Source of the DNA: Prevotella sp.
Lineage (GTDB): Bacteria; Bacteroidota; Bacteroidia; Bacteroidales; Bacteroidaceae
Length of the DNA: 39,052 nucleotides
Assembly: GCA_017412705.1 (NCBI GenBank)
Contig: JAFPWS010000063.1
Location: 1-39,052, forward strand
Direction of reading: 5' to 3'
The translations under genes and the position numbers were made by a program. Positions 4,356 to 36,661 of this stretch are shown here, piece after piece. How positions within the stretch are numbered: the first letter of the stretch is position 1; each line of letters begins with the position of its first letter. Below the pieces are notes generated by a model. That model saw nothing but the letters and a program-made list of their open reading frames with translations, was not told the DNA's origin and searched no databases.

Positions 4356-4910
4356 ATGAAAAAGAGTTTTTTAATTTTATTGATGATGACATTCGTGTCT
4401 GCGCTTGTTGTCATGGGATGCGGAGAGGATAATTCTTCAAGTCAGGACCAGTCGCAGGAGCCTGCGGCAGAAAAAGTCCAAGGAACCGTTAGCGATGAAA
4501 AAATGTCATACGACGAATCTGCTCCAAACCTGCTGGTGTCATTTGCCAATACTGGATGTAAGCAGGATGCCAATACCACTCGTGCCGAAAGTTTTTATAG
4601 CAAAGAGACCATCGTGTATGAGGCAACTCAAGACGGAGGTTTGATAGTCCACCACAACAACATCCTTTACGGCTGCACGGCGGAGATTAGCTCCATGGCA
4701 AACATACAGGGCAATATCATAGAAATATACGAAAAGACAGAGCATAATGCTGACGTTGACTGTGTCTGCCCTTATGACTTGAAGATGGAGGTTGGCGGGC
4801 TGAAGCAAGGCTCATACACCCTGGTGATTGGCGGTAACTCCTGCCACACCATTACCATCCCCATCGAATACACTACTCAGCTGAAAGGGGAGTTTGTCGT
4901 AAGAGAGTGA
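4356..4910 (+). CDS. Cysteine-containing lipoprotein, unknown function
   Basis: The 184-residue product has a signal peptide ending in a lipobox-like VVMGC, giving a lipidated Cys at about residue 22 and a short acidic/Gln-rich linker (SSSQDQSQEPAAEK). The globular part carries Cys in TGCKQD, LYGCTAE and the pair CVCPYDLKMEVGGL, followed by GSYTLVIGGNSCH. The CxCP-YDL..GL..GSYTL pattern resembles small Bacteroidota lipoproteins with a beta-sandwich fold that I cannot name with certainty. The ATG at 4356 was preferred over the ATG at 4345, which is in another frame, because only this frame gives a signal peptide. The gene has its own -7 element and appears monocistronic. Confidence 0.85.
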   Translation: MKKSFLILLMMTFVSALVVMGCGEDNSSSQDQSQEPAAEKVQGTVSDEKMSYDESAPNLLVSFANTGCKQDANTTRAESFYSKETIVYEATQDGGLIVHHNNILYGCTAEISSMANIQGNIIEIYEKTEHNADVDCVCPYDLKMEVGGLKQGSYTLVIGGNSCHTITIPIEYTTQLKGEFVVRE

Positions 4911-5078
4911 AGGCCATACAAAGATTGGCGACGTAATGTGAAGGATTCTCGAATCACGCGAATCCCCTGATTTTATGTCGTCGTATGCCGGACATCAGAT
5001 GAAATCAAGGCCCGTCAGCGGATGCTTGCCGCTGGTGACGGCATCGGGTTCGAAGATGAAGCACCATTTCAATGGTCA

Positions 5079-5214
5079 ATGACACATGACAGATATGACG
5101 GATAAAAACAGGAATCCCTCACACGTGTACGCAGGAACTTTTGGCAGTGTCAACACTTCCTGCGTACACGCGAGAGAAATCAGGAAACCATGTGTCATAT
5201 CCGTCATCCGTCAT
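5079..5214. repeat. Imperfect inverted repeat with a 14-bp perfect core
   Basis: CGTGTACGCAGGAA (5124-5137) pairs perfectly with TTCCTGCGTACACG (5157-5170) around a 19-nt loop. Outside the core, ATGACACATG (5079-5088) is the reverse complement of CATGTGTCAT (5189-5198). ATGAC-type heptamers occur on the left in direct orientation and on the right inverted (ATCCGTCAT at 5199-5207 and 5206-5214). It could be a small non-autonomous element, a binding site or a structured RNA. There is no transposase nearby. Confidence 0.75.
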
Positions 5215-5418
5215 GTAAAAGTGAAGCATGAAGATCATCACCGGAAAGTTCAGCATCGACGTGGCGGAGTGACGGACATCGCTCTCTTGACGACAGAAAT
5301 ATTTGGAGTATCGGGAAACAGTGGGAAGAATGCGGGAGGAAACGGGAGGAAACGGAAATCGGGGGTCGGAATGTCGTACCTTTGCACTGACAACGAGGGA
5401 GCGGCGGCCTGAGCTGAA

Positions 5419-5484
5419 GTTTGGTACCGACAAAGCAAGGGTTTCCTACCGAGAAACTGGTAGTTTCCTACCGAGAAACTCCGC
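5419..5484. repeat. 22-bp-period palindromic tandem array, three units
   Basis: Units begin at 5419, 5441 and 5463, each 22 bp. Units 2 and 3 share an identical 18-bp start with the palindrome GTTTC-CTACCGA-GAAAC. Unit 1 reads GTTTG-GTACCGA-CAAAG: the fifth base changed C to G and its partner G to C, so pairing is preserved. The array lies between two convergent genes. Confidence 0.85.
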
Positions 5485-5520
5485 GTCGTGAGAGAACCAT
5501 AACCCTTAACTCATTAACCA

Positions 5521-6072
5521 TTATGAAGAAGACTTGGCGAAGGCAGTCAGCAGCAGGAGCGTAAGAATAGCAATAATGGCTACGGCAGGCCATAGGGACG
5601 GGGTGGAAGGGTGCTGCGGTGCACCAAAGGTGGTCTGATACTGTAGCATACGGTCTATGTAGGCATCGACTGTCTGCCAGTTGGCCGCCTCAATCTCTGG
5701 CAGTAGGTGCAGGAATACCTCTCTGATATACTTGCGGTGCTCTGTCTCCATGCCGGCAGGCAGCGTGTCGGTTGCGGCATACCAGCTGACGGTGCCAGCT
5801 GCGTTGTGAGGGAAAATGCGCAGCGTCTTCCAACCATCGTAGTTGAAGACGTAGGTGGTAAACATCTGTTCTTGCGTCAGACTGTCGCTGGGGGATGTCT
5901 GGTGTGAGCGGATGTAGCTGCTGATGGGGCTGATGTTGCCTTCGCCGTCGCACACCAACAGCCGGCAAAAATGAGCGGCAGTGGCCTTGGGCAGCATACA
6001 GGGAGTGCTTCTCGCTGCTGTGCCGCACAGGGCTACTGCCACTGTTAAGAGTATATGCGTGATGTGACGCAT
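5521..6072 (-). CDS. Small exported protein with C-terminal membrane anchor, di-heme oxidoreductase partner
   Basis: The 183-residue product has an N-terminal signal peptide (MRHITHILLTVAVALCGTAA) and a C-terminal transmembrane helix (LWPAVAIIAILTLLLLTAF), leaving about 130 residues outside the cytoplasm. I do not recognise a domain. Its ATG overlaps the stop of the di-heme oxidoreductase gene (TGATG at 6070-6074), which argues for translational coupling and a shared function. As the last gene of the porin-imelysin-di-heme unit, it might anchor or assist the cytochrome at the membrane; that role is inference from position only. Confidence 0.8.
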   Translation of the reverse strand: MRHITHILLTVAVALCGTAARSTPCMLPKATAAHFCRLLVCDGEGNISPISSYIRSHQTSPSDSLTQEQMFTTYVFNYDGWKTLRIFPHNAAGTVSWYAATDTLPAGMETEHRKYIREVFLHLLPEIEAANWQTVDAYIDRMLQYQTTFGAPQHPSTPSLWPAVAIIAILTLLLLTAFAKSSS

Positions 6073-23310: not shown

Positions 23311-23418
23311 GCAACTTTGTGCAATTAATTTTTGATTTTTACTTTTTTTACCTTTTCTCCTGCTGGCAAAAGGCCTTTTGGGGACCGTTTTGAGGGTAGG
23401 GGGTAACTGAGCGTTGCT

Positions 23419-23484
23419 CAATCGTAATGCGAAGGCCCTTCAATCGTAATACGAATGGCCTTCAGTCGTAATACGATTTTTGGT
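23419..23484. repeat. 22-bp-period palindromic tandem array, three units
   Basis: Units begin at 23419, 23441 and 23463. Units 2 and 3 contain TCGTAATACGA, a perfect palindrome about one central base; unit 1 has TCGTAATGCGA, which keeps most pairing through T-G. The spacers between palindromes are AT/G-rich and diverged. The array lies in the 369-bp divergent interval between the transporter unit and the mutase genes, upstream of the mutA promoter. Its sequence is unrelated to the arrays at 5419 and 36339 but has the same period. Confidence 0.85.
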
Positions 23485-28772: not shown

Positions 28773-29132
28773 ATGAAGAAGGCAATATTGACCCTTACAG
28801 TTCTGTTGGCTATAACGACAGCGAGCGCGCAAAACAACCAGAAGGGCGGGGCACCCCAGCCTCCAAAGAAGATGACCATTGAGGATAAAACCAACCATAT
28901 GGTTCACGACCTTGGACTTAACAATGCGCAGAAAGCCAAACTGTTGCAGCTGAATAAGGAGTACGAGGCCAAGTTGAAAGGCATTTTGACTGCTGAGCAA
29001 TACAAGAAGTACCAGAGCATGGGTCCTGGAGGCCCGGGCAGACCTGGTGGCCCTGATGGTCCTGGAGGACCGGGAGGTCCCGATGGTCCAGGCACGCCAC
29101 CCAAGGATGCAAAGACTAAGAAACAGAAGTAA
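28773..29132 (+). CDS. Small exported protein with collagen-like Gly-Pro tail
   Basis: The 119-residue product has a signal peptide ([20 protein letters not shown]) and a helical segment ([35 protein letters not shown], cut here as residues 46-80) of the CpxP/LTxxQ-like (DUF4890-type) kind. A collagen-like run of G-x-y triplets (about 84-108: [13 protein letters not shown] and on) and a Lys-rich end follow. It starts 12 bp after the kinase/CYTH gene, so it probably belongs to the mutase transcript. Its helical segment is clearly paralogous to the gene at 29281 (TDDQYKTYQKQ against [11 protein letters not shown]). Envelope stress or metal-related roles are known for CpxP-like proteins; none is shown here. 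Confidence 0.83.
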
Positions 29133-36191: not shown

Positions 36192-36338
36192 ACAATGAGC
36201 TGAAGTAGAAAGCGAATGCCTGGCAGCACACGGTGCTGCTGCAAGTCACAAAAGAAAGGAAAGCAGGCGAGTAGCTGCAAGTTTCGCCGTAGGCACATGT
36301 GTTATTACAACAGGGAAAAGAAGAAATTTCAACAAACT

Positions 36339-36426
36339 ATTTTGGCTATGGGCAAAAGGTGTTTTGCCTATAAGCGCAAGATGTTTTGCCTATAGACGCA
36401 AGATGTTTTGCCTGTAGGCGAAAGGT
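36339..36426. repeat. 22-bp-period palindromic tandem array, four units
   Basis: Units start at 36339, 36361, 36383 and 36405, each 22 bp. The last three begin GTTTTGCCT and differ mainly in the spacer. Palindromes are strongest in unit 4 (TTTTGCCTGTAGGCGAAA, eight pairs with one G-T) and weaker in units 2-3; unit 1 (TTTTGGCTATGGGCAAAA) keeps six pairs. The array lies between a plus-strand gene and a convergent minus-strand gene. The 22-bp period is shared with the arrays at 5419 and 23419, whose sequences are different. Confidence 0.85.
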
Positions 36427-36661
36427 TCTTAGCCCGGCTCTAAATCCCTGTTTGAATAGGGGTTTGCCCCTGTTTGAAGCGTTCCTATACCCTATTAGGT
36501 GTCGTTTGCGTCTTTGGGAGATTTCTGGGCTTCTGAAATGGAGTATCACCTACGGGGCGCTCTTTCTCCTCCCCGCCGCCCGTCGCGCGCTCGACCTATG
36601 GTCGCTTTGCTAGCAAAGAACAGGCGAGCGGGAAGGACACATCATAGAAACAATGTGTTTC

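Follow-up and report, generated by a model that had tools for sequence, protein, structure and literature searches.

The window, the whole 39,052-nucleotide stretch of Prevotella sp. DNA analyzed here, carries three tandem arrays of differing sequence with the same 22-bp period, named A1, A2 and A3. A preliminary description of this DNA had listed all three, and TRF finds each of them (5418-5479, score 66; 23418-23476, score 90; 36340-36424, score 107); they score highest among the 22 rows of a tandem-repeat scan of the window. The A1 array is made up of three units, spans 5418-5483 (starts at 5418, 5440 and 5462) and lies within a longer interspersed repeat. TAnnTTTG, the promoter box of Bacteroidetes, is matched on its left side:

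4974-5503, plus strand: interspersed repeat of about 0.53 kb (about 530 bp) carrying the A1 array, 92% identical to C96:103115-103666
5378-5385, plus strand: TACCTTTG, which fits the TAnnTTTG promoter box, with predicted transcription into the A1 array
5418-5439, plus strand: A1 unit 1, leader-side type, TTTG/CAAA arms and GTACCGA centre
5440-5461, plus strand: A1 unit 2, GTTTC CTACCGA GAAAC
5462-5483, plus strand: A1 unit 3, AGTTTC CTACCGA GAAACT
23415-23480, plus strand: A2 array, three units around TCGTAATACGA, flanked by divergently oriented genes for an Asp-Al_Ex permease and a methylmalonyl-CoA mutase
36339-36426, plus strand: A3 array, four units around GCCTATAGGC

Each A1 unit had been credited with a five-base stem. 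Units 2 and 3 have it (GTTTC/GAAAC), but unit 1 (GTTTG GTACCGA CAAAG) forms four pairs only, its outer G standing opposite G. At the inner pair, unit 1 has G-C where units 2 and 3 have C-G, so that the swap formerly read as a compensatory change is present; it nevertheless represents one inherited unit and no independent event, because AGTTTGGTACCGACAAAGC occurs six times in the 1.03 Mb sampled of this genome, units of the leader type (11 in total) take the first position in 10 of the 11 arrays holding one, and the flanking sequence is also common to most of these arrays. Partial copies of the carrier repeat are found at C34 and in MAG RGIG1062 (L071), and alignment with these and C96 shows that the C96 copy exceeds the window copy by exactly one 22-bp unit. 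No clear ends were seen when four aligned carrier copies were inspected for terminal inverted repeats and target duplications. TAnnTTTG is kept at the position of TACCTTTG in six of the eight A1 copies compared.

The 3.42-Mb genome (96 contigs) gave 59 matches to a 141-base query around the A1 array and 41 and 29 to A2 and A3 queries, respectively, all with E up to 10; one array may take several of these matches and the weakest are doubtful. Counted as arrays of at least two units, A1 is present 41 times (144 units), A2 25 times (82) and A3 12 times (45), the A1 clusters holding four (22 clusters), three (9), two (7) or five units (3). The units keep a strict register: with spacings up to 46 counted, adjacent units of the same family are exactly 22 bp apart in 103 of 103 cases for A1, 56 of 57 for A2 and 33 of 33 for A3. 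Moreover, A1 and A2 have a common 22-bp frame, 11 of their 13 joins measuring 22 bp (10) or 44 bp (one) from centre to centre and two measuring 43; one locus, L017, carries four A1 and four A2 units. Inverted units occur in 16 of the 41 A1 arrays, 6 of the 25 A2 arrays and 1 of the 12 A3 arrays. CGA ends the centre of both A1 and A2, mixed units are apparent by eye, and the two look like one superfamily. Both A1 arms draw on a small vocabulary, mainly TTTC, TTAC and TTTG, combined largely, if not wholly, independently. The A1 pattern has 36 hits in its own genome and none in 59 other genomes, 35 of them of the same genus; within one genome collection it was met in five other stretches, all from Prevotella (three from RGIG1062, one each from P6B1 and tf2-5). 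The family to which the A1 array belongs is interspersed and nearly species-specific.

Several further repeats were observed. A longer repeat with conserved flanks holds several A3 arrays (window 36320-36450, C33, C64, C78, C65 and C27), and a period-18 repeat with consensus GGTCCTGGAGGCCCGGGA, possibly inside a gene, lies at 29022-29080 of the window. Two identical-looking 21-bp arrays (L011 7831-7967 and L012 17205-17341, on contigs C63 and C5) lie equally far from the same A1 locus, which suggests that the region was duplicated, either in the genome or in the assembly. Several arrays lie less than 1 kb from the ends of their contigs (C63, C32, C13, C8, C87, C81 and C55), some of them near HU-HIG genes or fragments.

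The prevalence of the period was measured in two samples. The first, biased to matches, joins the window to 60 stretches of the own genome, of which 55 surround matches and five were unselected, 1.03 Mb altogether. Period 22 accounts for 60 of its 107 arrays with a TRF score of at least 60, period 21 for 12 and period 44 for three; the five unselected stretches (57 kb) hold no period-22 array. The second consists of 1.06 Mb from 21 genomes of the same genus, in stretches chosen blind to repeats. Here, 29 of 99 arrays have period 22 and six have period 44 (35 together), followed by periods 7 (10 arrays), 18 (8) and 21 (6). After block shuffling, the same-genus sample yielded two arrays in total, neither with period 22. 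Period 22 far exceeds chance and dominates over the other periods, and the earlier proposal of a period-22 family with differing sequences is borne out in both samples; the sequences of the same-genus period-22/44 arrays vary both between and within genomes. Their density ranges from 0 to 90 per Mb in same-genus genomes sampled over at least 20 kb. Among the 13 relatives sampled over at least 40 kb, four (G007, G008, G019 and G029) have none in their samples, which means that these genomes either can do without the arrays or have few of them. From 20 genomes of other families of the order (273 kb), 11 arrays were obtained, one of period 22 and three of period 23.

Placement was assessed on stretches of at least 15 kb, which hold 34 of the 35 same-genus arrays, with simple gene calls of our own. 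All 34 period-22/44 arrays are intergenic, as are 30 of 36 arrays of other periods (15-60 bp). Similarly, 74 of the 78 multi-unit clusters of the own genome lie outside predicted genes and four inside. The neighbours of the own clusters are convergent in 25 cases, same-strand in 24 and divergent in nine, 16 clusters being at stretch ends; for the relatives' arrays, the corresponding counts are 11, 16, four and three, compared with total lengths of 29, 97 and 33 kb for convergent, same-strand and divergent gaps. Between same-strand genes, single-unit hits included, neither A1 (11 same, 8 opposite) nor A2 (6 and 4) is clearly biased in orientation, and A3 leans to one strand relative to the genes (6 same, 1 opposite). 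Comparison of orthologous sites was clear for A2 only: of the relatives with both flanks, four were examined (G018, G020, G009 and G006), and none has the array between these two genes. The absence was read from the sequences, and the alignments are poor at their right ends. The two A2 flanks are more than 4 kb apart in G007.

Among the relatives, arrays of period 22/44 do tend to be palindromic. A stem of at least five is present in 16 of 35 same-genus arrays, compared with 5 of 37 arrays of other periods between 15 and 60 (Mann-Whitney p 0.001), and 19 of the 35 have no stem of five. Whole-unit dyad symmetry exceeds that of shuffled units for the A3 consensus of the window and not for those of A1 and A2, for which this circular score is too blunt. 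The arms of two further arrays, L107 (five units) and L161 (four units), are invariant over 7 bp across units, with varying centres and spacers. The half-site words TGTATAA/TTATACA are common to these two loci, which come from two species (L107 13838-13954 in G026; L161 11305-11388 in G003).

The suggestion that the palindrome itself is under selection fared less well when aligned units were checked for covariation. Arm words are matched in 64 of the 144 A1 units versus 39 expected, and in 16 of 55 distinct units versus 10 expected (p 0.013); leaving out the leader unit, the figures are 12 of 50 versus 8.5 (p 0.08). Matching is marginal in the distinct units of A3 (6 of 38 versus 4.1 expected, p 0.09), and those of A2 show no excess (15 of 57 versus 15.5 expected, p 0.64). 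Column-wise pairing of distinct units is at chance level in A1, A2 and A3 (p 0.45, 0.73 and 0.46), the unit scan for this test including many single hits inside predicted genes that are likely due to chance; with all A1 copies, identical ones included, it reaches 0.536 versus 0.520 by permutation (p 0.003). Neighbouring A1 units pair no more often than chance predicts (20 of 86 versus 23.0 expected), and a within-array pairing test has a p value of 0.01 in the own genome and of 0.80 in the relatives. Since the arms are mismatched in more than half of the A1 units (80 of 144), pairing is not strictly kept: the data on this family support a tendency to symmetry and not strict pairing, and selection on the A1 hairpin or on pairing itself is at best weakly indicated by the modest excess of matched arms. 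Strict covariation of the stems is disfavoured by the chance-level columns, by the relatives' within-array result and by the lack of excess in A2.

The A1 array is a minisatellite, short, placed between genes, interspersed and fixed in its 22-bp period, and resembles two described systems. Tandem repeats of constant length and variable sequence, of 20-21 and 52 nt, are described in Bacillus and other bacteria in the sections used here of Subirana and Messeguer (2021, PMC8161180): several families per genome, mostly species-specific, non-coding, with mostly few units and conserved short words. The study concerns Bacillus and states that 20-21 nt repeats occur in other groups; its authors weigh nucleoid proteins and RNA and leave the role open, and the words Prevotella and Bacteroid- are absent from the main text of their 2019 paper (PMC6749651). 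The Prevotella arrays likewise show one dominant length over unrelated sequences, a non-coding location and several families per genome (three here), with a nearly species-specific A1 pattern. They differ in the unit of 22 instead of 20-21 or 52 nt and, in the own genome, in A1 and A2 sharing arrays in register, in some inverted units, in frequent dyads and in longer carriers. As the traits tested are shared except for the length, we class the arrays as a variant of these repeats.

Porphyromonas belongs to the same order as Prevotella. Its BrickBuilt minisatellite-MITE, as outlined in the sections used of Klein et al. (2015, PMC4596501), has in P. gingivalis a 23-nt unit, up to 22.8 units and 19 intergenic copies, 11 of which have portions of both leader and tail. 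The Prevotella arrays resemble this description in their short spacerless tandem unit, intergenic location, multiple copies and predicted stem loops, and part of the A1 and A3 copies have conserved flanks where BrickBuilt has its leader and tail. They are set apart, by description, by a unit of 22 versus 23, by two to five units per family cluster versus up to 22.8, and by several families sharing one period. Among the papers listed by searches of an open-licence library, none has a title or abstract opening devoted to 22-bp arrays in Prevotella.

The explanation that we favour, tentatively and at somewhat less than an even chance, is that the arrays are a Prevotella variant of the constant-length, variable-sequence satellites, close to BrickBuilt, and probably form rows of dyads that act on duplex DNA. 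Whole 22-bp modules are gained, lost and recombined, and some array copies have moved within larger duplicated segments. Each unit would be an imperfect dyad of two half-sites acting in double-stranded DNA, and three or four units in strict register could offer a multivalent platform to a dimeric or polymerising protein of nucleoid type, tolerant of sequence and dependent on spacing. Such a protein, its binding and any effect are what we infer from the pattern of the arrays. This reading draws on the period of 22 over unrelated sequences, the exact register and the common A1/A2 frame; on the shared arm words, the enriched palindromes and the invariant arms of L107 and L161 with their varying centres; and on the intergenic placement, the one-unit difference of the C96 copy, the lack of clear orientation bias in A1 and A2 and the chance-level pairing of neighbouring units. 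Counted against it are the 19 relatives' arrays without a stem of five, the four relatives without an array in their samples, the missing A2 array at the orthologous site, the A1 arm matching, which also fits hairpins, the strand lean of A3 and the four own clusters inside genes. Nor does 22 bp fit exactly the two helical turns suggested earlier: with 10.5 bp to the turn, it makes two turns and one base, which by arithmetic rotates each unit by about 34 degrees relative to the last.

Almost the same likelihood goes to a satellite with no function, though it too remains rather doubtful. The arrays would then be passive or selfish by-products of slippage and recombination within MITE-like or duplicated segments, intergenic only because 22 bp breaks reading frames. 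The near species-specificity of the sequences, the longer repeats that carry some copies, the variable number of units and the absence of A2 from its orthologous site all agree with such an origin, which by itself leaves unexplained the fixed period over unrelated sequences and the invariant arms around variable centres. Intergenic placement alone says little either way, given the similar location of most arrays of other periods.

It is unlikely that the arrays work as RNA or single-strand hairpins, that is, that they are transcribed, mostly at gene ends, into one long stem stopping transcription or shielding 3' ends. Convergent gaps are indeed enriched, with 25 of 58 own clusters versus 21% of gap length and 11 of 31 relatives' arrays versus 18%, and the arm matching within A1 units would fit as well. 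The folding results are divided. Against dinucleotide shuffles, the A2 region (23412-23482, z -3.7/-3.2 for the two strands) and the A3 region (36336-36428, z -6.5/-3.3) fold better, whereas the A1 array folds no better (z +0.60 and +0.06). Across all arrays with at least three whole units, 18 of 23 in the relatives and 16 of 32 in the own genome fold better than mononucleotide shuffles at p < 0.05. When columns were re-dealt among units, pairing beyond column make-up was retained in four of the 23 relatives' arrays (L101, L107, L156 and L166; Fisher p 0.009 for all 23), and the own arrays as a set showed none (2 of 32 at p < 0.05, Fisher p 0.60); re-ordering of units revealed no excess in either set. 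Further points against hairpins are the lack of clear strand bias in A1 and A2 and two negative scans: a search of 4900-5700 for a G+C-rich stem followed by a T run found one site elsewhere and none at the A1 array, which dismisses an intrinsic terminator there, and Rfam at gathering score recognized only a tRNA in the whole window, which dismisses a known RNA family.

REP/BIME elements are interspersed short palindromes in mixed orientation, and Y1 transposases occur in genomes with REP elements. That the arrays are elements of this type moved by a RAYT (Y1) transposase is highly improbable: they share the short multicopy palindromes and the inverted units, and Y1_Tnp has matches in 6 of 10 genomes with one in the own genome, but the strict 22-bp register sets them apart, and they show no dependence on the transposase, G024 and G026 having no Y1_Tnp match and 5 and 7 arrays in 120 and 80 kb, respectively.

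Returning to the favoured action on duplex DNA, HU-HIG proteins (PF18291) were considered as readers of the arrays. The own genome has PF18291 matches at 14 places, 13 of them over the cut-off, plain HU included; five array-rich relatives have 81 (30 fetched) and nine others have 2 to 19 each. A period-22/44 array lies at most 450 bp upstream of PF18291 in 4 of 14 own cases and in 4 of the 30 fetched, compared with 9 of 118 ordinary genes of the same five relatives; these counts were made by eye and measured from the family match, not the start codon, and include cases that are not independent, as the own C8 and C32 loci look related, as do L200 and L209. Two further own loci, L175 and L176, carry pairs of period-22 units whose score falls short of the cut. 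Of the A1 copies compared, only the near-identical C5 and C63 copies immediately precede an HU-HIG gene (PF18291, E 5.5e-16), and an A1 array occupies this position in Prevotella sp. tf2-5 as well. Four period-22 arrays of differing sequence stand in a row at L200 (G026, 1055-1367) and at L209 (G003, 1042-1376), upstream of apparently related HU-HIG genes of two species. Over 14 relatives, HU-HIG copy number and array density give a Spearman coefficient of 0.48 (p 0.08), and G007 runs counter to the link, with 19 matches and no array in 80 kb. The link to HU-HIG is weak, a lead only. It would be a long shot to propose that a histone-like protein, for instance one of the HU-HIG paralogues, some of whose genes have arrays upstream, recognizes tens of sites on Prevotella chromosomes. 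If true, such sites would be set by spacing and dyad symmetry instead of by sequence. Why bacterial genomes keep one repeat length across unrelated sequences is a standing puzzle, which Prevotella makes testable: arrays are numerous within a genome, some relatives are rich in them and others poor, and conserved arms, whole-unit changes and register are concretely predicted.
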